DNA of 64,000 nucleotides, taken from positions 1,550,001 through 1,614,000 of the forward strand of contig JALJCQ010000016.1 in the NCBI GenBank assembly GCA_023091665.1, given 5' to 3'. Shown piece by piece: positions 15,103-61,692 of the stretch. Position 1 is the first letter of the stretch, and the number at the start of each line of letters is the position of its first letter. The stretch is from Pythium myriotylum (Eukaryota; Oomycota; Peronosporomycetes; Pythiales; Pythiaceae). The notes below the pieces were generated by a model. It searched no databases and was not told the origin of the DNA. It saw only the letters and a program-made list of their open reading frames with translations. The position numbers and the translations under genes are program-made.

Positions 15103-15264
15103 GTGGAGGAAGCAACCGGAAATGAAGACTGAGGACAAGTCCACGAGGATGTTGATTGAAAGACTAAATTAATACTGATATAGGATTGGGTTGCGCTCAA
15201 AATCTCGCGATTACTGTCCTCACCACAACCAAACAACTAGATGTCTTTTTACTCGATTCATCCA

Positions 15265-35404: not shown

Positions 35405-35983
35405 TCAGTTCACGCCCTCGATCCGAGGCACTGCGATCACGGGGATCTTGGCCGAGAGTCGCTTGTACGTCGCTGATGGTGTGTATTGGCTCTGTGCAAC
35501 GAGTTGCTGGTGGTGGTGATGGTGGTGGTGGTGGGGCGAGGCTGTTGGTACGCGGCCCTGGCTGCGCTCGAACTGGCACGTCGAGCACGCGCACTCGAGC
35601 TGCCCCGTGGTCGTGTTGCCGAGCCAGTAGACGAGATCGGGCCACGGGATCTCCTCGGTGCACGGCTCGTTCGAAGGCTCGAGCTGGGGCTGCTCTTGAC
35701 GCTGCTGGTAGCGGCTCGTGGCCTCGTGGAAGCGCTGGAGCGCGGCCTGGTTCCAGTGGGACGCACGCTTGATCGGGCTCGGCGTCGGGAACACGACGTG
35801 GTGCTCCGTGTCAAAGAAAGGCTCGACGCCCGTAGGGGTCGTGATCTCATCGGCCGTGAGCATCTTGTGGTCGTCCCACATCGCAACGTCGCCGTCCAAG
35901 CTCGCGTCCACGTGGGACGAGATCATACTCGAGTCGATCCGTAGAGGGTCGTCGTCGTGGAGCTTGGTCGAGAACGAGTTCAT
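35405..35983 (-). CDS. IEGIN-array protein a (unrecognised small-protein family)
   Basis: 192 aa, first member of an eight-gene minus-strand array. ATG 35983 (MNSFSTKLHDDD) is chosen because a predicted initiator lies at 36061-36077. The N-terminal half has the family's MWDDxxxL...D-E-TPTG-E segment. The C-terminal module starts with EPCTEEIPWPDLVYWLGN (from residue 106), then CACSTC (Cys131, 133, 136 with Cys108 upstream), ERSQGRV, a His8 run, and YKRLSAKIPVIAVPRIEGVN at the extreme C-terminus. The four cysteines could bind zinc (inference). There is no signal peptide or membrane segment. I do not recognise this family from any described domain. The His run is unique to this copy. Confidence 0.82.
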   Translation of the reverse strand: MNSFSTKLHDDDPLRIDSSMISSHVDASLDGDVAMWDDHKMLTADEITTPTGVEPFFDTEHHVVFPTPSPIKRASHWNQAALQRFHEATSRYQQRQEQPQLEPSNEPCTEEIPWPDLVYWLGNTTTGQLECACSTCQFERSQGRVPTASPHHHHHHHHQQLVAQSQYTPSATYKRLSAKIPVIAVPRIEGVN

Positions 35984-36060
35984 GGAAAGAAAAGAGAGGC
36001 ACCCCCGCAAATTCAGCGAGCGAGAGAAAGAGTCGGGGAGAGCACGTGGCGTGGCCGTGG

Positions 36061-36100
36061 CCAATTTGCGAATGGGCTGCAATGGCAAAGCTGCCACGGA
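36061..36100 (-). promoter_or_regulatory. Shared promoter module of array gene a
   Basis: On the minus strand, TCCGTGGCAGCTTTG (36086-36100) is followed by an Inr/FPR-like GCCCATTCGCAAATTGG (36061-36077). The ATG is about 80-115 nt downstream. The GTGGCC core also occurs in the opposite orientation at about 36055-36062. Confidence 0.5.
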
Positions 36101-38242
36101 AGCTCACTTTTCGATAGACCACTTGGCACCGGAGAACTGCCTCCTCCTCGCTCTGGGTCGCCCGTTGTAATCCACCCAGAGATTTTGGAAACAGCTCTGG
36201 CGCCAGAGCCTTAACCGCCCTAGCCGTTCCACCTTTTTATTTGCCATGGCCAATCCGCACCCCTTGTGCGTGTGGTTTTTTCTACGCCTCGCGAAACGCC
36301 CGCACGCTGATCGGCGATGAATCAGTTCAAGGAGTCGGTCATAACCGCCGGGATGTTCTCATCTCTTCTCACCTCTCCTCCCTCCCCTGAACTGGGCTCG
36401 TTATGGGTGTGCCTAAAAATAAGGCTTGTGGGGGTCAGGATCGGATCTCTGGTCAGAGGGCCAGAGAGCAAGCAGCCATGTCCAACCCCACAGCAGTGGA
36501 TCCACCACCGACTATGTATATAGGGGGAAATGAACCTTCGCGTGGCTCTGATGCTGACGCTCTTGTCGCACGTGGCGCGAAGAAAAGCACGGAACTGATG
36601 CGCCGATGGCTACATACCTACCGCGCCTAACATGCGCAAGCGAGAGTAAGCTGACCACCTGCACACAGCTGTGTCTGCTCGTCATACATGAGCGACAGCG
36701 ACAGCGTGACTTACAATGCCCTCGAACACGCGCGGGAGGGTGTGGGTGAACCCACGATCGGAGGGCGTGCGCTGAAATGAGAGAGTCGAACCTTGGCTTC
36801 CTCGGTGTCTCATTGTCGTCCGCCACCTGCAAGCAGTTGACTCAGTATAACTCTCTCATCTTCTCTCACTCTCTCACTCTCCTGTAGTAGACCTAGGAAT
36901 CCTACGTAGAGATTCGCGGGAACCGAGACTGGGATCCCGCGATCCGAGCGACGGGAGCGCTGAGAGTGTCGCCATCTCGAGAGGGATGGATGGAAAGTAG
37001 AAAGGGCCAGCGAGGTACAGAAGAGGCAAGTTGAATGGCGCAATGAGCATGTGGCCTTCCAACGAAGTGGCCGGCACCACGGGAGAATAAGAAAGTGAGA
37101 TCTGGCGTGATCACCGCCTTCATTGGGTCACGGCGGGAAGCCAGTGTGTCGCAACGCGGAGCAGGTCCCATGAAGTGCGAGTCGTTCTCATGAGAGCTCT
37201 GCTCGTGCGCGGCCTTAGTGGCACTTTGGCCACATGGCCACCACCTTTTCAAGGTCTCGCATCAAACGCTGCAGCCCTCGTTCGATAGGCGAAGATAACT
37301 GCGACACTCGGAGGAAGGAGCGAGACGCCACCTGCCCTGGATCGGCACGCAAAGGGAGCTCCTCGCTTGGATTCCCACACGCATGCGTACCCAAGCTCAG
37401 GCCAGCGCGTGGACTGACTAATTGATACGAAGCAACGCCGGCTGTCGGTCCTTCGTACAACTCGCACAGTCACCACGCTCCTAGAGCTACTTGGCAGCAT
37501 GCAAGTTCAGCCTAATAGGGAGGCGATCCTTGTCTTCGAGTCTCAGCATGCTTCTCTGGCCCCCCCCCCCCAAGTGAACGGTACTGTACTGTACAGTACA
37601 GCTCAGCACCACACAGACCATCCGTGGACCAGCTTCGATTTTCATGTTGCACATAAACGAGCCACGTCCAGGTGCTCCCTGCCCAGAGAAAAAAAAGTTG
37701 GGCTCCCTGTCTGCCTTGTTTCGGCGTGGTCGACCCGAGTCCGAGGGAGGGCGCTCGACGGCCGTGGCTGTCGACAAGATGCTTCCGTTTCGTCGTCGTC
37801 TTCATGAGAAGCGTGACGGGTTGTCGGCTCGAACAGGAAGCATGGATGGCAGGAGCCCAGCACATGAGGCGCTTTTAACGCGACGTTTTGGAGGGCACCT
37901 TGGGTGTCTGTGCGGGTCCCTTTCCGACCGTGCATGTATAACGACTACAACCACACGACAAAACACGTACGACGACAAAACGGTCATCAAGCTGTTGGCG
38001 GTTGCGTTACCGGGGCGTCTTCGGGATGGAAGATACCGGCAGTAGCCATCCCGTGCCGATGTTGACCGCACACGTCGTGGCTATCCGAGAGGGCCTTGCA
38101 GCCATGCGATACGACGTTTCCCCTCGCGTGGTTCCAACACTGCAATGTTTACCATTTAGGCAGTTCACTATGAATAATTTAGAACAGATCCTCGCCTGCG
38201 TCAAGTCCGATTCGGCGGGCACTTGAGTACGCGTGGGAGCGT
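36101..38242. other. Intergenic region, gene-poor accessory DNA
   Basis: 2.1 kb without a supported gene. It holds a C12 homopolymer (37560-37571) and an 18-nt perfect palindrome CTGTACTGTACAGTACAG at 37584-37601. ORFs of about 100 aa on both strands overlap and show no family similarity. Confidence 0.55.
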
Positions 38243-38665
38243 TCAGTTAATGCCCTCGATGCGCGGGAGACGAATGACCGGAATCATCGCGGACAAGCGC
38301 TTGTAGAACGTCGATGGGATGTAGATGTAGTGGTCGCGTACCTGGTTGTCCTGTTCGGGGTTGTGGCCGAGCAGAGCTACGGGCACACGGCCTTGGCTGC
38401 GCTCATACTGGCATGTAGCGCACGCGCAGTCGACCTCACCGGTCGCCGAGTTCCCCAGCCAATAGACGAGATCCTCCCACGGGATCTCCTCGGTACACGG
38501 CTCACTTGTGGGTTCAATGTTTTGGTGGTCGTGGATCGCAGCAGGGAACTTGCGGCCACGGATCGCTGTCTCGAAGAATTGCTCGATGCCAGTCGGTGTC
38601 GAGATATCATCGGCTCGGAGGATGTGGTCGTCGCCGCTCATGTACGTTACGAGATCTTCTTGCAT
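38243..38665 (-). CDS. IEGIN-array protein b
   Basis: 140 aa with a clean ATG at 38665 (MQEDLVTYMSGDDHIL). It has the full C-terminal module: EPCTEEIPWEDLVYWLGN from residue 55, CACATC (Cys80, 82, 85, with Cys57), ERSQGRVPVALLG, HYIYIPSTFYKRL and SAMIPVIRLPRIEGIN. At the nucleotide level its 3' end is nearly identical to that of gene c (40942), so b and c are recent duplicates. It is one of the shortest members and defines the minimal family protein. Function unknown. Confidence 0.85.
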   Translation of the reverse strand: MQEDLVTYMSGDDHILRADDISTPTGIEQFFETAIRGRKFPAAIHDHQNIEPTSEPCTEEIPWEDLVYWLGNSATGEVDCACATCQYERSQGRVPVALLGHNPEQDNQVRDHYIYIPSTFYKRLSAMIPVIRLPRIEGIN

Positions 38666-38730
38666 CGTATTGCTGTGGAGCTACCTATTGCGGAGTGCTT
38701 CCAAGCCCGTTGGTCGAGTCGCTTGTGTCG

Positions 38731-38767
38731 CGAGAATTGAGAAGTGGCACTTCAAATTGGCCACGGA
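38731..38767 (-). promoter_or_regulatory. Shared promoter module of array gene b
   Basis: Minus strand: TCCGTGGCCAATTTG (38753-38767), then Inr/FPR-like GTGCCACTTCTCAATTCTCG (38731-38750). The ATG at 38665 is 66 nt below the module. Confidence 0.5.
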
Positions 38768-40941
38768 GATGTGTGCAGGTGCGTGCGTGCGTTCTGCAGA
38801 CGGCTCGATCGGCTCTTGGCTGACTGACCGTGGATGCACTGGACTGAACGTGGAATTCACTGAGTTTGGCGAAGAAAACCGCGGGAAAAGCGCCAATCTT
38901 TGCATTACCTAGACTCCCCCATTGGATGCGTCAGCGGTGATGTGTGTTCGTAGTCGACGCGCATAGATGACGAGATTCGATCGGACACCACGACAGGGAC
39001 TCGGCCCACAAAAATCTTATCCATCGAGCGAGAGGGGCGCGTATCTCAACCAGAATGTATACGTCCCTCCCATTTCCAAATGTGCAGCGATCCAGTGCTT
39101 CAACTTAGGTTCCGTTGATCACTGGACACCATTGCATGGTAATCCAATTCCAATGAACTCACACAAGGGAAGGGCGACTGAGCGTATAAAAGTTCGTGTA
39201 CCTGGAGCCAACAGGTCTGGGACGGAGTTCATTGATGCTGCGTGTGTTTATACGCTTTCTGGGAGAGAACGGAACAGTGTAGATGAGCACGCAGGCTCCT
39301 GGACCAAGATACATAGGATGCAGCATCACGTCACTCGCTCACAAAGTCTTTGCAAAAGCGAGTCGATAGGAAATGAAGACAATGGTAGACACCAGCAACC
39401 GGAGCACGCCCAACTCTGCACAGATTTGGTTCCCAGTGCATCCATTCCCCCAGGGGCGCAGTGCGGTTTCCCCAGTCGTTACAGCATTCACACCACTGGC
39501 GAGTGACTGGAAAAATATCAGACCAGTCGGCACCTTGCCCGGCGTAACGTCGGCGCGTTGTTCTGCATAAAGTCGGCACTTTTGTTCAGGGCCAAGTTTG
39601 CTTTCTCTTCGTCTGGGAATCCTAGGCCCGCTGTCGCCCTCGAAGTTTGAGGACCAGTCAGCCAGTCCACATCAAGTTTCGAAAAGTCAGGATGTACATA
39701 AAAAGTCCTCTTCTCGAGACACCCAGGCCCAGAGAAGTGTCGTCCAAAAGAAGATTGGGTCTAAACACACGGAATGCGGAGGTTGATCGGTTCATCCGAA
39801 AGATCCAAGATCTCTTACCGTATTGCGACGTATCCAAGAATGACGAGCTCTTGCATGCAGCACTCGATACCTCAAAGCCGGACGAGCTGAGCCATTCTGT
39901 AGAGAAACTCAAAAGCGTTGCGAAAAATCATTGTTGATCGCGCTGATGCGATGTTAAGAGTATCAACGCAATCAATGGCTGGGCTCGACCATGATCACAA
40001 TTATCCATTGGTCACAGACGTCTGGAATGGACATGCCCAGACACGGTAAAAGCCATTCGGGGCGCCGCCCACCATTGATACGTACATACGCATCGTCCCA
40101 GGAGGTACCCTTCTTGAATATGGTATCGTAGCGTCGAACGACTCCTATGGCTTCACTAGGCGCCGCGAGGTCTGGTTTGTGCATCCGACTCTATCGCTCC
40201 CAGGCGGAATACTAAGATTGACCCTTACATTTCTGCTGTTGCTATTGTGGCTTAAGTTTCCCATTTAATACCCAAGAGCGCGCCTCGCTCTACCCGAGCC
40301 CGTCGGGATGTCACTCCGATCTCCGATTGCGAACGGGTTCTTTGGCCGTGGGATCCTGTTGAGTCATAATACGCCGGTGTCTACATCCACAAGGGAATTA
40401 GGGTTTACGCACTGCAGTTGAACTCGAAGAGACCTAATCACCATTCTCAGACCCAGTGTACAGATCAATATACCAAAATTTCTCGTGTCAAGGACTGGTC
40501 CAGGCCCAAATATTGATAACAGCAAGACGTCGAATCCTTGCGCAGCGGCAACCTATGGCCCTCCATTTTGATACGCTTCAGGAAGCAGAATCCACGACGA
40601 TATTCAGACGGTTATTGGGCAGTTCAATCGAGGGAACTCCACGAGTCCGTCGCAGGCCTCCGTCCTGTGTAATGGAATCGTCTCCACCCTTGCGCCACTC
40701 CATCCGCAAGAACAAAGAACGGTCCAGTCCATCACTCAAATGTCTCGGCTGGCCAAGAATAAGATGTGCAAGCTGGCCAGTGGGACCAACGAGATTTGCT
40801 TTTCTTTTCCTGCGAGACCCGCTGTGGAGGTCTCTCGTTTTCTGATTGAAAGCGAAGTGCGCTTCAAATAAACACAACTCGATTATCACTTACTACTTTC
40901 TACTCATCCGTGGGATTCACATGCAACGGACTTGGAGGTCA
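38768..40941. other. Intergenic region between array genes b and c
   Basis: 2.2 kb. An open stretch on the plus strand near 39780-39937 (VDRFIRKIQDLLPYC...) could be a gene remnant, but it has no start or partner that I can support. The rest shows no recognisable gene or repeat. Confidence 0.45.
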
Positions 40942-41412
40942 TCAGTTGATGCCCTCGATGCGCGGCAGGCGAATGACCGGAATCATCGCGGACAAGCGCT
41001 TGTAGAACGTCGATGGGATGTACACGGGGAGGTCGCGGGATAGGTTATCCTGCTCTGAATCATAGCTGAGGCGTACCATAGACACGCAGCCCTGACTCCG
41101 TTCGCAATGGCACTTCGAGCACGAACAATCGACTTGACCCGTGGTGGCATTGCCGAGCCAGTAGAGGAGATCTTCCCACGGGATTTCTTCTGTGCATGGC
41201 TCGCTGGTGGGTTCGACGCTCATAATCGGATTTCCGTTTCGGTGAATCGCACTGGGGAAGCTGCGATTGCGAATGGCCATCTCCAAGGCACATTCGGTGT
41301 GGGTCGGATTTGTAACGCGACCTTCATTGGCGTTGACAACCCAAATGACATGGCCTTCCTTCATTCTGGACGTGTTGATGTAGGGTCCTTGCTGGGTCGG
41401 AGTTGGGTCCAT
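40942..41412 (-). CDS. IEGIN-array protein c
   Basis: 156 aa, ATG 41412 (MDPTPTQQGPYINTS). The N-terminus differs from other members and lacks the usual MWDD...TPTG segment. The C-terminal module is intact: EPCTEEIPWEDLLYWLGN, CSCSKC, CERSQGCV, then YIPSTFYKRLSAMIPVIRLPRIEGIN. It has extra cysteines in the linker (KCHCERSQGC). The 3' 80 bp are almost identical to gene b. An Inr/FPR-like sequence lies at 41457-41475, but the TCCGTGGC element of the sister genes was not found. Confidence 0.8.
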   Translation of the reverse strand: MDPTPTQQGPYINTSRMKEGHVIWVVNANEGRVTNPTHTECALEMAIRNRSFPSAIHRNGNPIMSVEPTSEPCTEEIPWEDLLYWLGNATTGQVDCSCSKCHCERSQGCVSMVRLSYDSEQDNLSRDLPVYIPSTFYKRLSAMIPVIRLPRIEGIN

Positions 41413-41456
41413 GGTGTCGTCGCTTCAAGGTGTCGAGGTCTTCTCCGGGGCGGCGC

Positions 41457-41475
41457 GAAAATTTGGGAATGGCAC
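41457..41475 (-). promoter_or_regulatory. Inr/FPR-like initiator of array gene c
   Basis: Minus strand GTGCCATTCCCAAATTTTC closely resembles the initiator of gene b and fits the oomycete Inr plus FPR. The ATG at 41412 is about 45-60 nt downstream. Confidence 0.5.
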
Positions 41476-43335
41476 TTCGTCGACTGAGGATTACGGCTCG
41501 CTGGAGGTCTCCAGGACCAAGAGCACTGGGTTGGACAGAGACAGGTAATGCACTGACTTTATGAATTGACTGTCGCGGATCTTTGCGGTGCCAGTCTCAT
41601 CTCGAAGTCGAACTCATTGTTCATCTCTTCGTCAAAGCCCAGTGGGGAAGACATGGCAGTCCTCACGTCTTCCCCACAAAGGCAGGCAGGCTGAAAGATA
41701 TCGAAAGTCGACCAGAATGCTATGGAGCTCTCTTCCGATGGTTAGGGGAGCTGTTTGGTGGTCAGGCTGAGCATCAGCCAGTTTCGAAGGTCGAGCGTGG
41801 CATCCAAAAGACTCAACACGGTTACAGTCGTCTTGACAATCGGGGCTTTCGATGCCATGGGAGTTACAGTTGTTTTCGGGGAAGCGAGTGCACAAGTCTC
41901 ACGACAGGGTACGAAAATCCGCGGCGATCCTCTCGCAGCTCGCAGTATAGAGCGGCATTTCTGTTCGTCGCTCTCTCCACCTATCGTGTCGACGCAATGC
42001 AGGATGACAAGGTCCACTCATGAGGCACGGCTGTTCGAGCCTTGAAGTTCAGCGAAGAAACCTTTGGGTGTGGACATGTTGGCGCAGGCGACGAGGGTGA
42101 TCTGGGCAAAGGAGCATCCCAAAAACGAAGACCTTCTCCACAGCTGGAGGAAGCAGCATCCCCTTGGCATTCCCAAGAGGATACCTCGCCACTAATGTGC
42201 TGGCGTGCGATTCCCGTGTATAGTACTGTTTGCCAACGCCCCCCATGCTCACTTGCTCTCTGTATCAGAATTGTGGATTCATTCGTGGGCGCCTCATCCT
42301 ACCTCGATCACGGACGAGGCGCACGTCTTACAAAGCAGCCAACCAGTTCCCGCTGGGTCCTTCCAACCGCACGCACGCCACAGCGGACCAGCGTTGCTGT
42401 GTGTTCTGAACCATAGGATCCCTGATACAATCGCATTCAATGTGTACCGTCCGCTCTTCGCCCTCGTCAGGAGCAATGTTGAAGGCGTTCTCAGCATCGT
42501 TAAAATTCCCACCAGCGAAGCAATCCCGAGGATGACGTTGGGTGTGTCGTCGCTCTAGTAGACGGACCCCCGCCTGTGTTTACCGACGGCTTCACTATCC
42601 ATCAACACCGAGATCGATAGCGAATCACCCACCACGATTTTAATGGCCAGGCTATTCAATTCGACCAGCAAGTTTTCGTGGCTTTGTAGGAGATGACTTC
42701 GGGAGACAAGATCCACCAGTAAACCGTCGTGGCCAAACTTATGCACCATGATACTGTTTCTCCTCGTGTACTGTAGATGTGAACTTGCTCATCGCACAAC
42801 TTCGTGGAGGAGCGAACATGGTCGTCACAAGCTCTCAAGTGTTCGGTGTTCTGCCAACTTCGACGAAATCTTCCCTGCTCAACACTGGCGTCTGGGTGAT
42901 TTGATCGAGCAGTACATATTATCCGAATTGTTGGTACTGTACCAAAGCTAATGTCGTTGCCGTGTTGCTGCGTTAAAAAAACCACCACCCTGACGTCGGA
43001 TCTCTCCGAGGAAACCAAGAGGCGATGAAGGTCGTCTCAGGCGACTCATCTGCCTCACAATCGCCACACGGGCGCAAAGAACGGCCGAGTTGGATGGTGC
43101 GTACGGGGGAAGCAATCGCGCCACGCGGGACGCGGGAGTCGGACCAAGTCCCTCCAAATGTCTCGGCTGCTTCTTATTCTTATTCTCCCGGTCCCGCCCC
43201 CCGCGTCTGTCCGAGAATAAGAAACGCGAAGTGCTCGCAGTGACGCCAACGCGATTCAATTGCCACTCAAGAAGGGATCGTTTACAGGCTCGCGGTGTTG
43301 TTACGGTCAGGTCCCCGAGACAGGGCGGGGTCTCC
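41476..43335. other. Intergenic region between array genes c and d
   Basis: 1.9 kb. It includes an inverted repeat TTGGTAC-T-GTACCAA at 42931-42945. Several broken ORFs on both strands suggest decayed coding DNA, but no family could be named. Confidence 0.45.
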
Positions 43336-43758
43336 TCAATTCATTCCCTCAATTCGGGGCACGCGGATGACAGGGATCATCGCGGACAAGCGCTGGTAAA
43401 AGGTGGAGGGGATGTACACGTAGTGGCCTCGGGTCTGGCTTTCTCGCGAATTGGCCGCCTGGCCGAGTAGTGCGACAGGCACGCGGCCTTGGCTCCGCTC
43501 GAACTGACACGTTGCGCAACTGCAGTCTACTTCGCCGGTCGTGGAATTGCCCAGCCAATAGAGGAGATCGTCCCACGGGATCTCTTCGGTGCACGGTTCG
43601 CTCGTCGGCTCGACTCCGTGGTCGTGAATCGCGCTCGGGAATCGCCGACCACGGATGGTCGTCTCGAAGAATCGCTCAATTCCAGTGAGTGTGGCTACAT
43701 CTTCTGCTCGAAGGATGGGGTCGATCTCTTCATCCCACATTGCGGGGTCCTCTTTCAT
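43336..43758 (-). CDS. IEGIN-array protein d
   Basis: 140 aa from ATG 43758 (MKEDPAMWDEEIDPIL). The frame is open further upstream but has no ATG and runs into the predicted initiator at 43834-43854, so the longer form is rejected. It has the complete family order: AMWDEE, TLTGIERFFE, EPCTEEIPWDDLLYWLGN (from residue 54), CSCATC, ERSQGRVPVALLG, HYVYIPSTFYQRLSAMIPVIRVPRIEGMN. It is the same length as gene b and collinear throughout. The C-terminal residue pair is MN rather than IN/VN. Confidence 0.83.
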   Translation of the reverse strand: MKEDPAMWDEEIDPILRAEDVATLTGIERFFETTIRGRRFPSAIHDHGVEPTSEPCTEEIPWDDLLYWLGNSTTGEVDCSCATCQFERSQGRVPVALLGQAANSRESQTRGHYVYIPSTFYQRLSAMIPVIRVPRIEGMN

Positions 43759-43833
43759 CGCTGGTGCTTGGGTGTGGAGCCGCTGAAGGATGTCCGGGTC
43801 GAGCCGTTCACGGTGGTCGGTAGGCTCGTCGTC

Positions 43834-43874
43834 GGCGAAATTTTGCAAGTGGGCGCAACCAAATCGGCCACGGA
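43834..43874 (-). promoter_or_regulatory. Shared promoter module of array gene d
   Basis: Minus strand: TCCGTGGCCGATTTG (43860-43874), then Inr/FPR-like GCCCACTTGCAAAATTTCGC (about 43835-43854). The ATG is at 43758. Confidence 0.5.
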
Positions 43875-44875: not shown

Positions 44876-45250
44876 TCAGTTCACTCCTTGGATGCGTGGC
44901 AGAGCGATAACTGGAACCTTGGGTGATAGCGCTCGAGATTGCGGAACAGGAATGTATACATAGTGGCCGTGGAGTCCGCCGTGTGTATGCGCGAGCACCG
45001 GGTCCGAGACCCACGGTGGCCTATGGCGGGAGTCGTTAAGGCACGTAGAGCAGCAGCACGGCTCGTGACTGGGTGGTGCTGAACTACTCCCGAACCAAAA
45101 GAGTAGGTCTTCGAGGGAGATGTCCTCTCCGCATGGGTCGATAAAAGGTTCAATTGAATCGTGTTCAGTGTCACTTGACCACACTGCGTCGAGATTCGTG
45201 ACCGGGTCAAAATAAGCGAGCTCTCCTGCGATCACCTTGGTCAATCCCAT
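44876..45250 (-). CDS. IEGIN-array protein e (IQGVN subgroup)
   Basis: 124 aa from ATG 45250 (MGLTKVIAGELAYFD). A longer open frame lacks any ATG. The module is divergent: DPCGEDISLEDLLFWFG replaces EPCTEEIPW..YWLG, followed by CCCSTC, GHYVYIPVPQSRALSPKVPVIALPRIQGVN. The PQSRxLSPK and IQGVN features are shared only with gene f (52148), so e and f form a subgroup. The Ngaro-like retrotransposon begins about 400 bp upstream of this start codon and separates e from f; its effect on expression is unknown. Confidence 0.75.
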   Translation of the reverse strand: MGLTKVIAGELAYFDPVTNLDAVWSSDTEHDSIEPFIDPCGEDISLEDLLFWFGSSSAPPSHEPCCCSTCLNDSRHRPPWVSDPVLAHTHGGLHGHYVYIPVPQSRALSPKVPVIALPRIQGVN

Positions 45251-45647
45251 GGTATTTGCGGTTGGGCTTTTCGCGGGTCGCGGATAGTTGGAATGTGGGA
45301 GCCAGCAGACAAGCTTGGCATTTCGAGAGATCGCTCGGCACCACAAAAAGGTTTCTGACACTTCGTTGACGTGTGCCGAACTCCTTGAACTCAGTTCGAC
45401 GGAGCCAACCCACTCGTGCTGACCACACGCGGTGCCATGTCTGCGTCGTAGAAACAATCGCTTGAGAGGCACCACTAATTTTACAACTCAATCAGGTCCC
45501 TACGAGTGATTGGTCCGATCCAGAGTGGTAAGAAAGCTCGAGGCAGCTTCTTTGGGTTTGTTGATGCTGAGACCACGCCATCCAAAGACAATCCAGTTGA
45601 GAGTTCCGCCAAACAATGTGCCTTCAACATTATATGTTCTAGAGGTT
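45251..45647. other. Upstream region of array gene e, left flank of the retrotransposon
   Basis: 397 bp with no supported ORF. No target-site duplication could be matched to the right flank, as expected for tyrosine-recombinase retroelements. Confidence 0.55.
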
Positions 45648-45852
45648 AGAGCATACATTCCGAAGGATGTTGCCATTTCCGGATGCGGCAAGATGCGAGG
45701 AAGATAAGATACCCAGACTCGAGGATGTGACATCGTCCCAGGTCACAAAGTCGCGCGTGTATTCTTAGTAGCATCGTCTCCCAGATCGTCGTAGGTCAGT
45801 TTAGAATCTGCCTGCGACCAACTAAACCCTAAACCCTAAACCCTAGGCAAAC
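45648..45852 (+). repeat. A1 terminal repeat, carrying a telomeric insertion
   Basis: 173 bp identical to A2, then 25 bp of CCCTAAA-type repeat absent from A2, then GGCAAAC shared again with A2. Confidence 0.88.
45821..45845 (+). repeat. Interstitial telomeric repeat (CCCTAAA)n
   Basis: About three and a half units of CCCTAAA, the complement of the TTTAGGG telomere repeat. It lies between CGACCA and GGCAAAC of A1; these two strings are directly adjacent in A2. Confidence 0.9.
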
Positions 45853-45882
45853 AACAACACAAGTATTCCATCGGTCTGTGCC

Positions 45883-47754
45883 ATGCCAATCACTCGCGGG
45901 ACACTCGCCTTCATCGGTCCGGCCCAGGCTCCGGCCCTAAAAGTTCTGACATATGTCCGTGTCGTCCGCACGTCTGCGGACCTGGCGACCGTCCACGCTG
46001 TGGGCCCCAATGTCGACTCCGACTCCGAGTTTTCCATCCCCCTCGACAAGCTTCGGCACAGAGTGGTCGACGATAGCGAGTCCGAGCTGTGGCCGGGGTC
46101 GTACGTGGGCCTGCCTGTCGCGTTCGCCCACCCCAGCGGGTCTCACATAGACGAATGGGCCTACGGCGTCGTCACCGGGTACCACGTCGCTGAGTCCCTA
46201 GCGTCTCTGCGTGTTCGCTACGGCACAGAGACCACCACCATACCACTCGATCCTCTGCGCCTGATCAAGCTCGACCTACTGAACTACGCCATCCAAGTTG
46301 GGGCTGGCGTCAACATCGCCATTGTCAACGCTCTGGAGCTCCTTGACCAGCAAAATAAAGTGATTGCCGCCTACAAGTCTAAGCGCGCGACGTTGCCCAA
46401 AACTATCGCCAACATGCTGTCGGTCCCATTCGCTCCGAACGAGCGCGTCCCACTTTTGCGCCCGCACGACCTGACTGTCGTGTCGGTGCGGCGACAACAT
46501 ATAATAGATTGCACGACAGGTTCACGCAAACGAAACGCCAGTGACGTGTACACGGATCCTCAAGTATCGTCCTCACCACCTTCGTCGTCGGACACCCGAC
46601 AGGTTCCCAAACACCAACGCGACGAGCCGTATTCACCCGCGTCCAGCGCGCGCTCCTTCCGGACTGCAATCGAGAACGATGACAACGGTGCAGACGCCGA
46701 CAGCCTCCTGTTCGGAACGGATGAGGACGATGTGGAAGACATCAAGCGACAGAACCGTCCCTTGACCAAGCGTCGGCGAGTGCGAGCCGACAGTGATAGC
46801 TCTGTCACAAGCTCAGTTTCCTCCTTGGGTCCCCGACCTACGCCTTCTGGTCGCGTCGAGTTCCGACCATCGCCCACGCAGCAAGCTGGGCACAAGCTCG
46901 TCGCCAAGCGGCAGCTCCCAGGTACGAACCCTCAGATGCTACTCGAACTGATACAGCAAATGCCCGATGTTGTCACTTTCTTGGGGGCCCCGCCTGTGCT
47001 CCGCGGTCTATGGGAATTCGCGTTCAACCGCGGCACGCATCTCATGCACTGCAAAGAGTTAGATGAGTCCATGGAGCTCGACGCCCAAGCGCGGGGGGTG
47101 AATATGACGGATTTCTCAGAGCGCAACAAGCTCGCGAGTCCACCAGCGGCGAACTCGCGCGCGGACGTCGCTGGTGCCCTACGCTCCCTCTCGATGTTTG
47201 GGCACTACTTCTACAACAGTGATATCAACCAGTTGATCGCAACGGCAACGAAGTTTGTCGACCGATACACGCGCATCAATGATTTAGACGCTAAGGGATG
47301 GGACCACGTGGCCTTCTGGATCACCAAGAAGTTTGGCAAGTTTCGCAGTATTCTTGCCTCTCAGTCCATGGCACACGCGCGTTCCGTCCTCGATGAATTC
47401 AAGTGGTTCGACGACGGGTTGACACGTTTGGAAGACCTGCGACGCACGCAGACCAGCGCACAGGGCGTTGGCGGCAACCCAAACAAAGCCGCGCTTAGTG
47501 GCGACCGTCGACGACAACGACCGCGGACGGAATCGTCTATTCCTACCCAGGTGCTTGCTGGACTCCCTCGTTCCGGAGGGAAGTCGCTGTGCATGAAGTA
47601 TGTATCCAAAGTAGGCTGTACCGGTGACGGCTCGGGTGGCTGTTTTCACTCGCAAAGGGGTCACTTCAGGCCCACCACCAAGCTGTCTGCGGAAGCCATT
47701 GCACTAATCACGAGCCGATACGGCGGTCTCGGCGAGGGATTTTCGAACCTATGA
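45883..47754 (+). CDS. Ngaro-like ORF1, Gag-like protein
   Basis: 623 aa, ATG 45883 about 30 nt after the A1 repeat. No enzymatic motif. The N-terminal part (about 1-200) is globular; the middle (about 220-330) is Ser/Asp/Arg-rich with a basic KRRRVRADSD patch; the C-terminal third is helical. Near the end, CMKYVSKVGC...GGCFHSQRGH gives a CCCH-like cysteine/histidine cluster that may bind nucleic acid, in the place where retroelement Gag proteins carry zinc knuckles. It ends at TGA 47752-47754 with CTA directly after, a known leaky stop context, and ORF2 continues in the same frame. Confidence 0.8.
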   Translation: MPITRGTLAFIGPAQAPALKVLTYVRVVRTSADLATVHAVGPNVDSDSEFSIPLDKLRHRVVDDSESELWPGSYVGLPVAFAHPSGSHIDEWAYGVVTGYHVAESLASLRVRYGTETTTIPLDPLRLIKLDLLNYAIQVGAGVNIAIVNALELLDQQNKVIAAYKSKRATLPKTIANMLSVPFAPNERVPLLRPHDLTVVSVRRQHIIDCTTGSRKRNASDVYTDPQVSSSPPSSSDTRQVPKHQRDEPYSPASSARSFRTAIENDDNGADADSLLFGTDEDDVEDIKRQNRPLTKRRRVRADSDSSVTSSVSSLGPRPTPSGRVEFRPSPTQQAGHKLVAKRQLPGTNPQMLLELIQQMPDVVTFLGAPPVLRGLWEFAFNRGTHLMHCKELDESMELDAQARGVNMTDFSERNKLASPPAANSRADVAGALRSLSMFGHYFYNSDINQLIATATKFVDRYTRINDLDAKGWDHVAFWITKKFGKFRSILASQSMAHARSVLDEFKWFDDGLTRLEDLRRTQTSAQGVGGNPNKAALSGDRRRQRPRTESSIPTQVLAGLPRSGGKSLCMKYVSKVGCTGDGSGGCFHSQRGHFRPTTKLSAEAIALITSRYGGLGEGFSNL

Positions 47755-47790
47755 CTACCCACGTGGTCTAGCGCTGCGCCGTCGGCCTCT

Positions 47791-49884
47791 ATGCCCGGGC
47801 CTGTGGCCACCATCTCGTCCCAATGCGACACCCTGCCATGTCGCCTACATGTTCGGCTTGCGCGAGAGAGTCGACTTCGCGCGTCTCTGTACGAGACCTC
47901 TGTTCGCCAGACGTCTGAGCACGTGCTCGACGTTGCAGCACGCTACGGAGTGTGTCTGCCTGTCTTCGACCGTGAAGCGGTCGGTCTCGACGCGGCCTAC
48001 GTCGATGCGATGTCAACGTTCGCACGGCGATCTGCGCTGTCACTTCCCAACTTTGTTCGCCTTTTCCGCGGTGAGACACAGGAGGACGCCCGCCCAAACA
48101 AACACTTGCTTGAGATCACCGGCACCTGGACCTCTACGCAGCAGGCGGACATTGTCCGACGTTGGAACGCGATCGTTCGTCACGGTGTGCGTCCGGAGTG
48201 GTCCAGCTCGAGAGCAATCAGGCAACGTGACCGACCCCCCAACCATCGCTCGGCGCTCGCCAACCCCGACGCCATTCGCCGTCATATTAAACAAGGTGTG
48301 GCAGACGGGCGCTACCTCATCTTGGACAAGTCTCTTCTCACACAATGGCCAGAAATATTCACCAGCCCCCTCGGCGCGGTTGAGAAGCGTTCTCCGCAAG
48401 GGATCGACATCCGCCTCATCAATGACTACTCGTACCCACCCAAGAGCTCGGTCAACGATTTCACTTTGCGAGATAACTTCCCTGAGATTTCTTACAACCC
48501 TCCGGTCGACATCGCCCGCAGGCTCCATTTTCTTCGCACCCAGTTCCCAACGGCAGTCATTCTTCTCATGCTTGGAGACGTCTCCAGCGCGTTCCGGCAC
48601 GTGCCGATGAACGCAGAAGCGGTACACATGTTCGCTTTCATTTTTGACGACTGCCTCGTTATTGACCTCGCGTGTGGATTCGGTTGGTGCGGATCACCAG
48701 CATTTTACTCACTCGCCGCGACTGTAATCAACACGCTCTACGAGGCTTGCATGCCGGAGCGCGCGAATCTGGATCCCTCCCCGTTCGTCGGAAACGTCTG
48801 GTGTGATGATCACACGTGCGTCGAGGCCGACTCAGGGTCGCGCTGCCACGACGCCAACATCGCGCTTCGATACGCCATGCTTCGAGTCCTAGGACCAGCA
48901 GCAGTTAACGAACACAAGTTCACGGACTGGAACACCCACGGAAAGGCTCTCGGCCTGCTGTGGGACACAGCACGCGGTACAGTGTCGATACCACCAGCGA
49001 AGCTGGCCAAGGCCCTCGCCCGCACGAATGCACTGCTCACCTCAAACGCCGTGACCAAGACCGAGGTACTCGAGCTATTAGGTGTCCTCCGCCACGTGGC
49101 GGTCTGTTTCCCTTCGGCAAGATCCTTCTATCAGCGTGTCCACGACTTCGCTTGCTCATTGGCGTCGGGCCGTCGACGACCCCCAAGCTCGGTCGTCGAA
49201 GATTTGTGGTGGTTCAGAGCTATTCTCCATCACCCATCCAGGTTCAACTCGATCCCAGTCGAAGTGTTCGCAGGGGTCGCCCGAGCGTCGGTCAACGTGT
49301 TCATGGACGCGTCTGATACGGGTCTCTGTGTCCTCGAGCCAACCCGTCGCGAATACATTCGTCAACAGTTCACCGCCCAGCAGCGTGTACTCATTCAGGC
49401 CCGCGACCCGGCGTGGTCAATCAACGTTCGCGAGCTTCAGAGCGCGGCCCTTGCGGCCACACACTGGGGACCGTCATGGCAGGATGATGCTACCGCCAGG
49501 CCGGTCGTCGTGTGCCTCCACATCGATAATGCTAGCGCTGTCTCGTGGTCCTCGAAGAGATCCAGCCGTCACCCCCTCGCGCAGCTCTACACCCGTCTAC
49601 TGTCGCTTGCCGAGTTCCAGTTTGGTATTGTACTGGCCGCGGAGCACATCGCTGGTGTGGCAAACACCATGGCTGACGCGGGGTCCCGCGCGTGGGATTC
49701 GTCTCACAAACTGTGGAAGACGTGGGCTGACATGTCGTCTGATTGGTCGCAGGTGGCCGTGCAACCTCCTTACGACGATCTCTCCGCCGTCTGGGCCGGA
49801 TGCTCCGTCGACACGCCCTGGCTGAGTCTACCGGCTCCAAGTACCGCGCCCACTGGAAGCAGTGGTGCCAATTCGCCCACGTAA
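47791..49884 (+). CDS. Ngaro-like ORF2, reverse transcriptase-RNase H
   Basis: 697 aa from ATG 47791. The region between the ORF1 stop and this ATG is open in frame, so synthesis as an ORF1-ORF2 fusion by stop-codon readthrough is possible. The RT has the palm motif VWCDDHTCVE (Asp339, Asp340; a WCDD variant of YxDD) and LMLGDVSSAFRHVPM with the first catalytic Asp. The RNase H domain keeps all four acidic residues: Asp506 (FMDAS), Glu548 (NVRELQ), Asp579 (HIDNAS) and Asp629 (MADAGSR). No methyltransferase domain was seen after RNase H, which fits Ngaro rather than DIRS1. It overlaps ORF3 by 85 nt. Confidence 0.9.
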   Translation: MPGPVATISSQCDTLPCRLHVRLARESRLRASLYETSVRQTSEHVLDVAARYGVCLPVFDREAVGLDAAYVDAMSTFARRSALSLPNFVRLFRGETQEDARPNKHLLEITGTWTSTQQADIVRRWNAIVRHGVRPEWSSSRAIRQRDRPPNHRSALANPDAIRRHIKQGVADGRYLILDKSLLTQWPEIFTSPLGAVEKRSPQGIDIRLINDYSYPPKSSVNDFTLRDNFPEISYNPPVDIARRLHFLRTQFPTAVILLMLGDVSSAFRHVPMNAEAVHMFAFIFDDCLVIDLACGFGWCGSPAFYSLAATVINTLYEACMPERANLDPSPFVGNVWCDDHTCVEADSGSRCHDANIALRYAMLRVLGPAAVNEHKFTDWNTHGKALGLLWDTARGTVSIPPAKLAKALARTNALLTSNAVTKTEVLELLGVLRHVAVCFPSARSFYQRVHDFACSLASGRRRPPSSVVEDLWWFRAILHHPSRFNSIPVEVFAGVARASVNVFMDASDTGLCVLEPTRREYIRQQFTAQQRVLIQARDPAWSINVRELQSAALAATHWGPSWQDDATARPVVVCLHIDNASAVSWSSKRSSRHPLAQLYTRLLSLAEFQFGIVLAAEHIAGVANTMADAGSRAWDSSHKLWKTWADMSSDWSQVAVQPPYDDLSAVWAGCSVDTPWLSLPAPSTAPTGSSGANSPT

Positions 49885-50771
49885 TGCGTTGGTCAAGGTG
49901 GCTCCCGTCGTCCGAAACACTGTGTCACCATCGCCTCAGCTACTTTGCCATCTATTTATGGAAGCACGGTTGGAATTCGGCCCGTTGTGGTAATCAATAC
50001 CCGACCATCCAGCTCAAGTTGGCCGCGATTCGCTGGTTTCATCGGATGTATTTAGGTCGCGAAGTAGGTTGCGGACCGCGGCTCCACATCCTCCTCAAAG
50101 GTATCCAGCGTTTGTCGACACCGGCGGCGAAGAAGCAGCCTCTCACTCCCGCGTTCCTGCGACAGCTCCGCCGTACACTTCGTTTCAACGACCCTCGCCA
50201 ACGCCTACTGTGGGGCAGCGTGCTGCTCGCCTACTTCTTCCTGCTGCGTCGCTCGGAGTACCTCGCGATCGGGAGCAAAAGGAGATTCTACTGTCTCAAG
50301 ACCCGGCATGTGTTCTTCTCTGATCGACATGGCCGCCCAGTCCACGAACACAAGGCAACGGCTGTGACAATTGGTCTTGAAGGAGCCAAGAACGACCAGT
50401 TCGGACGAGGGGCTTGGCGGACGATGCACGCGTCGGGGGACGCGCTTCTCTGTCCAGTACGCGCCCTCAAGCACATCGTGCGCGCGAAGAAGAGTTTGGG
50501 TCGATCGGCGACGACAAGCGAGTACCTATGCTACAACCTCGATGCCCGGTCAGTATCGAATGCACTAAAGATGACAGCCAGAGCCGTCGGCGTGCCTGCC
50601 GCAAATTACTCTACTCACTCAATCAGAATCGGCGGCGCGACGGCTCTGCTCAGCGGAGGAGCAGACAGCCTCGCAATCAAGTTGCTAGGAAGGTGGGTGT
50701 CACGGGTCTACGAAGCCTACCCAGTACAAGCCGCGGAATCTACAATCGACCTCTCCAGGCGCATGGTGTGA
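49800..50771 (+). CDS. Ngaro-like ORF3, tyrosine recombinase
   Basis: 323 aa. ATG 49800 lies within the end of ORF2 in another frame; the open frame extends back to 49743 without ATG. Catalytic set of the tyrosine recombinase family: Arg150/151 (LLRRSEYL), His273-x-x-Arg276 (HSIRIGG), Trp299 in the His/Trp position (GRW) and Tyr304 or Tyr307 as nucleophile (YEAY). It would integrate a circular cDNA intermediate without making a target-site duplication. The arm-binding N-terminal domain (about 1-100) resembles the SAM-like fold of phage integrases. Confidence 0.9.
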   Translation: MLRRHALAESTGSKYRAHWKQWCQFAHVMRWSRWLPSSETLCHHRLSYFAIYLWKHGWNSARCGNQYPTIQLKLAAIRWFHRMYLGREVGCGPRLHILLKGIQRLSTPAAKKQPLTPAFLRQLRRTLRFNDPRQRLLWGSVLLAYFFLLRRSEYLAIGSKRRFYCLKTRHVFFSDRHGRPVHEHKATAVTIGLEGAKNDQFGRGAWRTMHASGDALLCPVRALKHIVRAKKSLGRSATTSEYLCYNLDARSVSNALKMTARAVGVPAANYSTHSIRIGGATALLSGGADSLAIKLLGRWVSRVYEAYPVQAAESTIDLSRRMV

Positions 50772-50817
50772 ATCGCACCAGTCCCGCACGCGCACCTCGG
50801 CATTCTATATCTTGGGG

Positions 50818-50894
50818 CCGCCTCGCCACGCCCACATGGGCAAGGCGCAATACACTTGCTTGCCCCCACTTCCGAGCTCGAGAGCTTGAGGAAA
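50818..50894 (+). repeat. B1 internal repeat of the Ngaro-like element
   Basis: 77 bp starting CCGCCTCGCCACGCC and ending GAGGAAA, identical by eye to B2. Confidence 0.88.
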
Positions 50895-51073
50895 GAGCAT
50901 ACATTCCGAAGGATGTTGCCATTTCCGGATGCGGCAAGATGCGAGGAAGATAAGATACCCAGACTCGAGGATGTGACATCGTCCCAGGTCACAAAGTCGC
51001 GCGTGTATTCTTAGTAGCATCGTCTCCCAGATCGTCGTAGGTCAGTTTAGAATCTGCCTGCGACCAGGCAAAC
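50895..51073 (+). repeat. A2 repeat of the Ngaro-like element
   Basis: Identical by eye to A1 but without the telomeric insertion (CGACCA is joined directly to GGCAAAC). Confidence 0.88.
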
Positions 51074-51075
51074 AC

Positions 51076-51152
51076 CCGCCTCGCCACGCCCACATGGGCA
51101 AGGCGCAATACACTTGCTTGCCCCCACTTCCGAGCTCGAGAGCTTGAGGAAA
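51076..51152 (+). repeat. B2 terminal repeat of the Ngaro-like element
   Basis: 77 bp identical to B1; the homology ends at 51152, which marks the right end of the element. Confidence 0.88.
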
Positions 51153-52147: not shown

Positions 52148-52612
52148 TCAGTTGACCCCCTGGATACGAGGCAGCGCGACCACAGGGATCTTGGGCGAGA
52201 GCTCGCGAGACTGTGGCGTCGGAATGTACACGAAATGGCCGCGGATCTTGCCTCGGGTCTTCTTCTTCGAACCCGAACGGCTCACATCGTAGATACAAGT
52301 GACACAGGGGCAGTCTGTTGGTTCGGGATCGGCTGGCGAGTCGCCGAGCCAAAACGCGAGCTCCTCCAACTGGATATCATCCGTGCACGGCTCGGCGAAG
52401 GGCTCGAGCTCGGCATGGTCAATGCCTTCCATGATCGTGTCCTCGTCCATAGTCACAGCGTTGAGAGCAGGTACGACTATGGACTCGATAGCCGTTTGCG
52501 TTGCAGTAGTCGGCGAGTTTCCGACGCTTGGGATCTTGCGGTGTGGGGTCACGAGGGCTTCCACAGCGTCCTCGAGTGTGGTGGCAAGCGGCGAGTTCGT
52601 CGCATTCGACAT
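52148..52612 (-). CDS. IEGIN-array protein f (IQGVN subgroup)
   Basis: 154 aa from ATG 52612 (MSNATNSPLATTLED); an open frame upstream lacks ATG. The C-terminal module has EPCTDDIQLEELAFWLGD (IPW changed to IQL), the cysteine set CPCVTC, a basic SGSKKKTRGK linker unique to this copy, then GHFVYIPTPQSRELSPKIPVVALPRIQGVN. It pairs with gene e by the PQSRxLSPK and IQGVN features. It lies on the far side of the retrotransposon from e. Function unknown. Confidence 0.78.
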   Translation of the reverse strand: MSNATNSPLATTLEDAVEALVTPHRKIPSVGNSPTTATQTAIESIVVPALNAVTMDEDTIMEGIDHAELEPFAEPCTDDIQLEELAFWLGDSPADPEPTDCPCVTCIYDVSRSGSKKKTRGKIRGHFVYIPTPQSRELSPKIPVVALPRIQGVN

Positions 52613-54929: not shown

Positions 54930-55358
54930 TTAGTTGATGCCTTCAATGCGCGGGATCTTGATCACGGGGATCTTGGCGCGCAGGCGCTTGTAGAACGAGG
55001 CCGGAATGAAGACGTGGTAACCGCCGGCCTGGAGGTGTGTGCCCTGGCTGCGTGCGTGGTGGCAAGTCGCGCACGGGCACTCGACCTGGCCCGTGGCCGC
55101 GTTGCCGAGCCAGTAGACGAGCTCGTTCCACGGGATGTCGTCCGTGCAGGGCTCGACCGAAGGCTCGAGCTCGGGGCTCTCTTGGTCGCCGCCGTACTTT
55201 TGCAGCAGCGCCGCGAGCTCATTCTCGGCGAGGAAGACGCCGTCGAGGCGTTCGTCAAAGTGGGGCTCGTTGTCCGTGGGGGTCGTGATCTCGTCGTCGC
55301 GAAGGATCTTGTCATTGTCATCCCAGGTCGTGGCGTGGATGTGCAGCGGCGCGTCCAT
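54930..55358 (-). CDS. IEGIN-array protein g
   Basis: 142 aa from ATG 55358 (MDAPLHIHATTWDDNDKIL). The frame is open further upstream without ATG and crosses the predicted promoter, so the long form is rejected. Family order: TTWDDNDKIL, DEITTPTDNEPHF, EPCTDDIPWNELVYWLGN, CPCATC, ARSQGTHL, YHVFIPASFYKRLRAKIPVIKIPRIEGIN. All four conserved cysteines are present. Basic residues replace neutral ones near the end (RLRAKIPVIKI). Confidence 0.84.
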   Translation of the reverse strand: MDAPLHIHATTWDDNDKILRDDEITTPTDNEPHFDERLDGVFLAENELAALLQKYGGDQESPELEPSVEPCTDDIPWNELVYWLGNAATGQVECPCATCHHARSQGTHLQAGGYHVFIPASFYKRLRAKIPVIKIPRIEGIN

Positions 55359-55423
55359 AGCTTGTCCGGAGGGTGGAGGGAAGAGGAGCTTGGAAGAGCT
55401 GAAAGAGCTGGATCTGTGCGCGA

Positions 55424-55463
55424 GGCTGCAAGATGCGAAGTGAAAAGAGAGATCGGCCACGGA
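55424..55463 (-). promoter_or_regulatory. Shared promoter module of array gene g
   Basis: Minus strand: TTCCGTGGCCGATCTC (55448-55463), then an Inr/FPR-like TTTTCACTTCGCATCTTGC (about 55428-55446). The ATG is at 55358. Confidence 0.45.
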
Positions 55464-57649
55464 ACGATGAAACGCTCGAATAAGAAAAGCGCTACTTCCT
55501 CTCGCTTTGGAGTGCTTCCTGTGGCGTCGGACACTGCGCCACGCACCCACGATTGCCGCGGCGGCGCATCGTCTGCCTCTCATCCACTCGCCCAGTCCTG
55601 TCTCTCGTTGCTCCCACTGATCCGTGTCACGGTCGCTAGTGATTGGTTCCACCGCTGTCAGCTCCGCCAAACCAGTGGTCGCCCATGGGCCAGAGGCACG
55701 CGCTCCGACGGCGATGGCAGCACGCGATGACTGTTGCCAGCCCGGATAGGACGACACAAGGCCAGCGCGTCAACATGGGCAGCACCCGGAGGCCGACGGG
55801 GAGGAGGGAGAGGAGGAGAACAAGATGGAAGGGGAGGACTTTTATCCTAGGCTGAGGACGTCCGAGGACTCTCTCCACTGGCTCAAGGTCGGGGATGACA
55901 AACCGGAGACCAACTGGGAGGCCGAACATCGAGTGTCCAGAACAGAGGGAGACAAACACGACAAAGTACAGAAGGAATCCAGGGCCCCTTCTGCTCGCAA
56001 GAGGTCTCGTTTTCTCTCTCTCTCAACGCCAGAGCGCTCCCTCCCCTCCCTTAAAACGAACGGCTTCCCGAGGGGGCCTCCGTACAGTACAGAAAGCGAG
56101 CTCCTCGCTTCTTGCCCCCGTGACCAAGCGTCCCGATTTCGCAGGGAGACGAGCCGGCGCGAATGTAATCCGTTGAGCTCGGCGGGTCCGAAATGACAAT
56201 GGCTACACCAGTGGACAGGGAGCGGCGGTCTTGTTTCTGGCCACGAGCGCGTGGCCAACGGATTAGTCGCTTTGGCCAATGCGATCTTCGCCCGCTCTGC
56301 TGGTCGACGATCGGTCGGCCGTCGCGCTGGTCAAGCAGCCAGCACGAGAGCTCTCCCGCCACACCAGCCTCTGACGTGGCCTCGTGTGCCCACCCACGTG
56401 GTGACGCCAGCGGCTACAGTAAATGCCAGGAAAATTTTTAGTAGCGGAGACCGTGGTCTCACCAAACGGAAGTGAGGGTGGAGGAGAAGCCCTCGTCCCT
56501 CTTGCAGCAAGGCTGCGACACGCGTCGGATCCAGACGATCTTGTCGAGAAGACCTGCAAAGGGGAGTGAGGGACCGCAGGCCCTGCTCTACAAATCCTCT
56601 CCCAAAAGGTCCCTCCCAAAAGGTCCCTCTCCTTCGTTGTCGCCTGCGGGTTTTTCGCATCTGGGAAAACGCCACAAAGCGAGCCGGGACAGGCTCGGAA
56701 TAAGAAAATGAGATGATGATCTTTGTCGCCGCGTCGTGATTGCGGAAACAGACGAGGTTGCGGCGGCGCTGACCACGACGCGATGGCCAGAGTCAACAAT
56801 CGCTGCCATGCTCATGCACCAGACGTACAGTACACAGATCCAGCGGTGGATGGATAATCCACGACTGTCTGCCGTCCTCGCCGAGACGCCGGCCGGGACA
56901 GTCGACGCTCGCCGGCTTTCTCGTCTGGGTCGTCTCGAAAAAACCGGTGGTCTCGCGTCGTCGCCCTCTCGTGCGAATACGATCCTCCCAGGGACCTGGC
57001 CTGTTTCGTGTCACGCCGGGACTTCAAGGCCCCCTGATACCGGATTTTCGCTCGCGTGGACCCGACGCCCTCGCGCCCAATGGCCGAGCGTGGCGTGCGC
57101 CTGCAGCCAATGGCGTGTACTGAGACGCGTGAATCACTCGCCCTCCGATCACAGCGAGGATCTCCATCGGAGGATCTGGTGAGACATAGAACGAGCTGGA
57201 GATACGAGAGATCGAGAGGAGGCCATGGGCTTCGCTCTTGGAGTGTTCGCTGCCAACGCTCTGACCAATCCATCGTAATCAGCTGCGTCTCGTTTCTATG
57301 TGAGTGAGCAATCTCGAGGCCAGCGGTGTTAAGAAATTCAGGAGTGAGGCATCCTGCTGTAGAGTCGAGACTCATCCTCCGTCTGGATGGCTTGAGCACG
57401 TGGCTCCATCCAGCCATCCAGCCAAGTGACGGAGAAAGCCAAGACCCACGATGCGGCGAGACGACGGCTCCAGCGTCTCGATTACCAGGCTCGCACGTGA
57501 TCCTAGCGGATAGCTCTTTCCTACGTGACAATCTCTAGATGAAGGTGAGTCAACGCAAAAACCAAAAACGCGCCGAAGCTTTCGGTGGGATCGATAAATA
57601 GTGGCTCTTATTTGGATTGACGCTTCCGTTCTAGCAACACGGGCCGTGT
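55464..57649. other. Intergenic region between array genes g and h
   Basis: 2.2 kb. It holds two GTACAGTAC motifs (56082-56090, 56825-56833) and a direct repeat TCCCAAAAGGTCCC at about 56600-56630. Overlapping ORFs on both strands lack ATG starts or family similarity. Confidence 0.5.
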
Positions 57650-58147
57650 TCAGTTGATGCCTTCGATGCGCGGCAGCGAAATGACGGGGATCTTGTGCGA
57701 CAGGCGGCTGTAGAACGTCACTGGGATGTACAAGTAGTGGCCTTGCGGCTCCTCGTGGGTCCGAGCCTGGCCCGTCGCGCAAGAGCAATCGACTTTGTCA
57801 GCCGCAGTTGGTGCTAGCTCTTGTTCCTCACTCCCGAGCCAGTAGACCAAGTCGGACCACGGGATCTCGTCGGCGCTCGGCTCGGCGAGCGGCTCAATTT
57901 CTTGCGGTGCGACGAGCGGACGGGAGTGGATCCATTGGGGTATGGGACGTCGACACGCACAATCTGGAGCACACGCCTTGGACATGGACGCCGCGGCCTT
58001 GACGAGGTCTTGGTCGACGCCTCGGGGCGTGGCGACGTCGTCGTCTGAGAGCGTGTGGTCGCTTGCGTCGTCCCACATCTCCACGTCACCGGCCATCGGC
58101 GAACCGTTGGTGGTGGGAGGCAGGAGCTGCGGAGATAGCGGTCGCAT
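57650..58147 (-). CDS. IEGIN-array protein h, cysteine pattern altered
   Basis: 165 aa from ATG 58147 (MRPLSPQLLPPTT). An upstream in-frame ATG at 58267 would give 205 aa; the shorter form is preferred because an Inr-like TCAGTTTCCAACC lies just upstream (about 58185-58200), but this is uncertain. It keeps MWDDASDHTL, ATPRGVDQDL, EIPWSDLVYWLG, GHYLYIPVTFYSRLSHKIPVISLPRIEGIN. The EPC cysteine is Ser and the third Cys of CxCxxC is Gly (CSCATGQ). A new cluster CAPDCAC appears upstream, perhaps compensating. Confidence 0.78.
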   Translation of the reverse strand: MRPLSPQLLPPTTNGSPMAGDVEMWDDASDHTLSDDDVATPRGVDQDLVKAAASMSKACAPDCACRRPIPQWIHSRPLVAPQEIEPLAEPSADEIPWSDLVYWLGSEEQELAPTAADKVDCSCATGQARTHEEPQGHYLYIPVTFYSRLSHKIPVISLPRIEGIN

Positions 58148-61501: not shown

Positions 61502-61692
61502 GGGCGCGAGCGGTTCCGTTGGATTCTGGTTCTCCGCTCGGACCGATCGGATCAGCGGAGAACGATCTCCGCTGCTCTGTTGGGAAGTTGGAACGTTGGC
61601 GCGTTGGCGCGTTGGTACGTTGGCGCCGAGGGGGTCCTCTCTTCCGCTTTTTTTTTTCTTTTCTTGTTGGCGTGCGCGCGGAGGAATTGTCG

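Follow-up and report, generated by a model that had tools for sequence, protein, structure and literature searches.

What is encoded by a run of eight small genes in Pythium myriotylum that all lie on one strand and all end in nearly the same residues, and how did the run arise? We studied these genes in a window of 64,000 nucleotides (C16:1550001-1614000) of a genome of 58.7 Mb in 55 contigs. The initial annotation had placed eight minus-strand open reading frames (ORFs) of 124 to 192 amino acids (aa) here, and all eight are present where it put them, each in a frame that is open well 5′ of the first ATG taken. Counted from this ATG to the stop codon, they are as follows.

35405 to 35983, minus strand: gene a, 192 aa, module at 35405-35680; the least changed copy, grouping with the relative P0001 (support 95/89)
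38243 to 38665, minus strand: gene b, 140 aa, module at 38243-38515
40942 to 41412, minus strand: gene c, 156 aa, module at 40942-41214
43336 to 43758, minus strand: gene d, 140 aa, module at 43336-43611
44876 to 45250, minus strand: gene e, 124 aa, module at 44876-45151; divergent, paired with f (97/89)
52148 to 52612, minus strand: gene f, 154 aa, module at 52148-52405; divergent, paired with e (97/89)
54930 to 55358, minus strand: gene g, 142 aa, module at 54930-55166
57650 to 58147, minus strand: gene h, 165 aa, module at 57650-57895; cysteines C1 and C4 lost

The array proteins have three parts, namely, a variable arm (33 to 101 residues in a to h), a core with the consensus EPxxEPC(T)(E/D)(E/D)IPWxDL(V/L)YWLG...CxCxxC, and a tail with the consensus (Y/F)xRLSxKIPVIx(L/V)PRI(E/Q)GxN. 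The C-terminal module described in the initial annotation is indeed common to all eight proteins, and PRI(E/Q)G(I/V/M)N stands immediately 5′ of the stop codon in every one of the genes. Some finer points of that description hold for most copies rather than for all: seven proteins carry the complete set of four cysteines, C1 and C4 being absent from h; seven also have the (Y/F)IP box, with a reading YTPSATY; IPVI is exact in six, with VPVI in e and IPVV in f; and the N-terminal WDD...TPTGxE is clear in some copies only and not recognizable in e and f. The arm carries a net negative charge in seven of the eight copies (that of c is net positive), and the tail is net positive in all eight.

Within the window, a degenerate DNA pattern for the tail (up to two mismatches) matched only the eight array places, with 0.14 matches expected from 100 shuffles. 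The same pattern of tail plus stop codon, allowed no mismatch, gave eight matches in the whole 58.7-Mb genome, all of them in the array, and none for the reversed control. A second pattern (IPVIxLPRI) found seven of the eight array genes genome-wide and nothing in the control; the missed gene, e, reads VPVI. Our first, narrow tail pattern had given no match in the genome because its codons were fixed. When g, f, h, and the relative P0007 served as protein queries against the genome, the same eight genes were recovered, in a procedure that scores the best candidates only and that a very diverged copy could escape. Weaker matches outside the array (best E values of 0.064 with P0007 and 0.42 with h) were not accepted as members. 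In the noncoding DNA about 180 to 200 bases downstream of c and d, the minus strand carries a common 15-base word, CAGCCGAGACATTTG, at 40737-40751 and 43155-43169; upstream of the array genes, common 7- to 8-mers were not above the level in random stretches of the window.

Three protein searches listed 12, 13, and 20 matches, and the matches listed included 24 different relatives. Eight of these carry an organism name, and all eight are from oomycetes, one match in each of eight species (Pythium insidiosum, Lagenidium giganteum, Globisporangium polare, G. splendens, [Pythium] brassicae, Peronospora farinosa, P. belbahrii, and Nothophytophthora sp.); the other 16 comprise three JGI and thirteen "lgn" entries. 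Judged by these alignments, the PRIEGxN-tail family is not limited to the array and spans Pythium-, Lagenidium-, and Peronospora-type oomycetes. No Saprolegnia-type or non-oomycete match was among the matches listed by these searches, which take no more than 100 short words each, limit candidate length, and are not exhaustive: the Peronospora members came up in the third search, having been missed by the first two. The hypothetical proteins FI667_g16124 of G. splendens, N0F65_009021 of L. giganteum, and P43SY_002976 of P. insidiosum have the same core, four cysteines, and tail, but lack the HYxYIP box of array proteins b to h. Each named species gave one match, in contrast to the eight genes of the array, in searches that are not a full copy number survey.

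We aligned 32 sequences, the eight array proteins and the 24 relatives. The core EPxxEP...W-L-G...C and the tail PRI(E/Q)Gx(N/H) align in all eight array genes and all 24 relatives. Ten residues are invariant in the 32 sequences (numbering of a): E102, P103, P107, W120, G122, and C131, which is C2, in the core and P186, R187, I188, and G190 in the tail. The chain ends at the same column in 31 of the 32; P0012 has H there instead of N. P0023 is the sole relative that runs beyond the tail, by 11 residues, which may reflect real read-through, an assembly error, or an error in the gene model; taken at face value, it means that a free chain end is not universal. One arm column holds W in about three-quarters of the 32 sequences, in most cases with acidic residues after it.

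In a tree built from 78 columns, a to h together with P0001 and P0012 split from the 22 other relatives with support of 96/94, and the array therefore represents a lineage-specific expansion. The groups of a with P0001 (95/89) and of e with f (97/89) are firm; b, c, and d group at 91/92, and the group of b to h with P0012 is not firm (69/85). P0001 is 57% identical to a over its length. Together with the diverged P0012, it shows that two or more types exist elsewhere, in metagenomes.

The initial annotation had proposed repeated tandem duplication, and the tree bears it out: neighbors b, c, and d, and likewise e and f, are each other's nearest relatives, which fits this mode of copying. DNA similarity between the copies is confined to the coding sequence, ending no more than 3 bases from the stop codon, so that either the duplications are old or the flanks have been rewritten. 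One pair carries a further trace, at two places.

38246 to 38326, minus strand: last 27 codons of b, likely gene conversion tract, 94% DNA identity to c
40945 to 41025, minus strand: last 27 codons of c, partner of the tract in b

Over these 27 codons, b and c are 94% identical (85% at third positions), compared with 68% (40%) in the remaining module, and the permutation P value lies at its floor of 0.0005 both for all polymorphic sites and for third positions (about 0.014 when multiplied by the 28 pairs); on this comparison, gene conversion likely produced the tract. For the pair c/h, the signal is no more than suggestive (74% versus 47% at third positions, P = 0.09). Conversion between a and c was rejected, since the P value was at the floor for all polymorphic sites but 0.11 for third positions, which we read as a conserved protein.

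The module is under purifying selection, in line with the initial annotation: Nei-Gojobori dN/dS was 0.09 to 0.56 in 25 of the 28 pairs and saturated in three, with many module dS values above 1, where this method is unreliable. Values for b/c, b/d, and c/d were 0.09 to 0.17, and those for a/g (0.56) and a/h (0.41) were among the higher ones. In the 8 of 28 pairs tested by bootstrap, the upper bound of pN/pS was below 1 in all eight for the module and in seven for the arm (g/h, 1.16).

Between e and f, the array is interrupted by a mobile element.

45639 to 51152, plus strand: Ngaro/DIRS-like retroelement of 5.5 kb with split direct repeats
45883 to 47754, 47791 to 49884, and 49743 to 50771, plus strand: its three long ORFs

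From the repeat layout and from generally known motifs, we take this element to be of the Ngaro/DIRS type. Its split direct repeats (45639-45820 equal to 50885-51066, 182 bp, 98.4%; 50818-50894 equal to 51076-51152, 77 bp, 100%) point to a fairly recent insertion of that type. The genome contains the end repeat of this element at 16 places. For the second frame, Pfam gave only RVT_1 (E = 0.19), and for the third it gave nothing. The array is not part of this element, which lies on the opposite strand between e and f. Elsewhere in the window we observed four related membrane-protein-like genes, two per strand, at 6755-17256 (DNA 70 to 79% alike), a tandem gene pair at 1585-5483 (84% identical over 1.7 kb), and a coiled-coil gene region in tandem duplicate at 60103-63544 (78% identical over 1.4 kb).

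The proteins match no described domain. In the 32 members, Pfam and NCBIfam gave no meaningful score and a PDB sequence search gave no relative, in agreement with the initial annotation, which recognized no known domain: NCBIfam gave no match at E = 0.01, and Pfam gave four families with one member each (best E = 0.026), none of them convincing. We rejected DUF6211, kappa casein, the FORGETTER1 zinc ribbon, DUF3669, and DUF6510, each found in single members at E = 0.013 to 0.07 and short of the cutoffs shown; kappa casein came up when f was read over a greater length, with E = 0.013 and a score of 16 bits where the cutoff is 25. Two UniRef labels, "C2H2-type" for P0021 and "Cryptic loci regulator 2 N-terminal" for P0024, were likewise rejected, with no Pfam family at E = 10. 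In the titles and abstract openings returned by a literature search, we found no paper describing the PRIEGxN-tail family.

All four cysteines are kept in 30 of the 32 sequences, so that four candidate ligands are conserved together, as in a zinc finger. The exceptions, h and P0012, each lack C1 and C4 (S and G at these places in h; A, M, and W at C1, C3, and C4 in P0012) and may go back to one shared loss rather than two. Apart from these four, a, b, d, f, and g contain no cysteine; the arm of h carries three extra ones (CAPDCAC). Because the four are kept and are lost jointly, we argue for one putative metal site, and their conservation lends indirect support to putative zinc binding. The metal would not be required for whatever keeps the tail, as h and P0012 retain the tail without the full set. 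The structure models are poor and too weak to argue from (mean pLDDT of 59.4 and 61.5, pTM of 0.21 and 0.27). At low confidence, the module model makes residues 13-20 and 33-40 helical and residues 21-22 and 27-28 short strands; in it, C2 and C3 follow a short hairpin, C4 begins a helix, and the tail is in contact with nothing. As modeled, the cysteines would thus sit around a hairpin and before a helix, like those of small zinc knuckles and treble-clef-like fingers. In contrast to these, no Pfam zinc family with the spacing C-x22-C-x-C-x2-C was matched at its curated cutoff, and Foldseek with the low-confidence prediction gave no match in the PDB.

We tentatively favor, at a probability of roughly 0.45, the reading that the array is a one-to-eight lineage-specific tandem expansion of a gene for a small intracellular adaptor with a variable arm, a metal core, and a docking tail. 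By hydropathy, none of the eight proteins has a membrane segment or a hydrophobic N terminus (Kyte-Doolittle means over 19 residues reach at most 1.03) or a signal peptide (for 12-residue stretches that start within the first 30 residues, the means reach at most 1.07), and we therefore infer that they stay inside the cell. The N-terminal arm, variable, mostly disordered, and usually acidic, would be the working end; as the part that varies most, it is suggested to set what each copy does. The core, EPxxEPC...IPWxDLxYWLG...CxCxxC, would fold as helix, tight hairpin, and helix around a single metal ion, with the four cysteines as its ligands. The tail has the look of a docking strand: it is hydrophobic with spaced prolines, carries a positive charge, hardly varies, and forms the end of the chain. 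SxKIPVIxLPRIEGxN would lie free at the end of the chain and dock in a groove of one conserved partner, so that tail and core would form a fixed plug. The common end point of 31 of the 32 proteins indirectly supports the claim that the tail must be free for its putative binding. The copies would have arisen by tandem duplication, with the least changed gene, a, at one end, and purifying selection would keep the plug, with gene conversion acting locally in one pair or more. The initial reading of the array was largely right; its support is only indirect for the putative zinc binding and the putative binding by a free end.

The same proteins could instead be transcription coregulators, in which an acidic arm with W, L, and F activates and core plus tail join a DNA-bound partner. 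The negative charge of seven arms and the W column followed by acidic residues would suit this role; however, Pfam and NCBIfam found no DNA-binding domain, the arms align poorly between groups, that of c is positive, and an acidic arm is nothing unusual in a disordered protein, so that we regard this role as unlikely. The tail, for its part, might dock a known signaling enzyme, namely, calcineurin (PxIxI-like), a MAP kinase (D-motif), or SUMO (SIM-like). The letters PRIE resemble the PRIEIT site of NFAT, and, like the PxIxIT peptides with which NFAT and other partners dock on calcineurin, the array tail is a proline-spaced hydrophobic strand. Scanned with the generally known expressions for PxIxI, SIM, D-motif, and LxVP, the 32 tails contain a PxIxI core in 30 (5.5 in shuffled tails), a SIM-like stretch in 32 (10.8), and a D-motif-like stretch in 32 (20.6), although the shuffles ignore the homology of the tails and the counts are not independent. 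The three readings each fit part of the tail and none fully: the full PxIxIT occurs in 0/32 and LxVP in 3/32, and such motifs need neither an exact chain end, which this family conserves as part of the unit, nor fixed residues on both sides. We consider docking of a known enzyme decidedly improbable.

Only gene a might be functional, with b to h decaying duplicates that are open by chance. The cysteine losses in h and the related P0012, the unrecognizable arms of e and f, and the higher dN/dS of a/g and a/h lean that way, yet all eight frames are open and share one end, and b, c, and d, derived copies, show the low values among themselves; such decay seems very unlikely. Tandem amplification and variable N termini are usual for oomycete effectors and would befit a secreted family expanded by host pressure. 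We give that origin hardly any credence, since none of the eight proteins has a hydrophobic leader, dN/dS lies well below 1 without the fast evolution of effectors, and the relatives span distant genera with the module unchanged and all conservation C-terminal.

Within the adaptor reading that we favor, a more specific and speculative version, which we hold to be quite unlikely as a whole, would make the proteins interchangeable adaptors whose fixed free-end plug fits one oomycete-specific receptor. Duplication and conversion would keep the plug alike while the arms diverge, giving up to eight working ends, and h, without its metal, would be a natural competitor or a version under altered control.

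The array genes belong to a real protein family, hitherto undescribed, and their local expansion is equally real. What is new is the family; tandem arrays of small adaptors as such are known. In the oomycetes, which include major plant and animal pathogens, a set of "hypothetical proteins" becomes a defined family, whose module spans 90 residues and whose tail of 16 residues is almost unchanged across genera, and from the constancy of this tail a constant partner is predicted. The array offers eight natural variants, one of them without the full cysteine set, with which the roles of arm, core, and tail could be separated. The nearly fixed ending of its proteins, probably a plug for that partner, would give a clean entry to an unstudied component of the oomycete cell.
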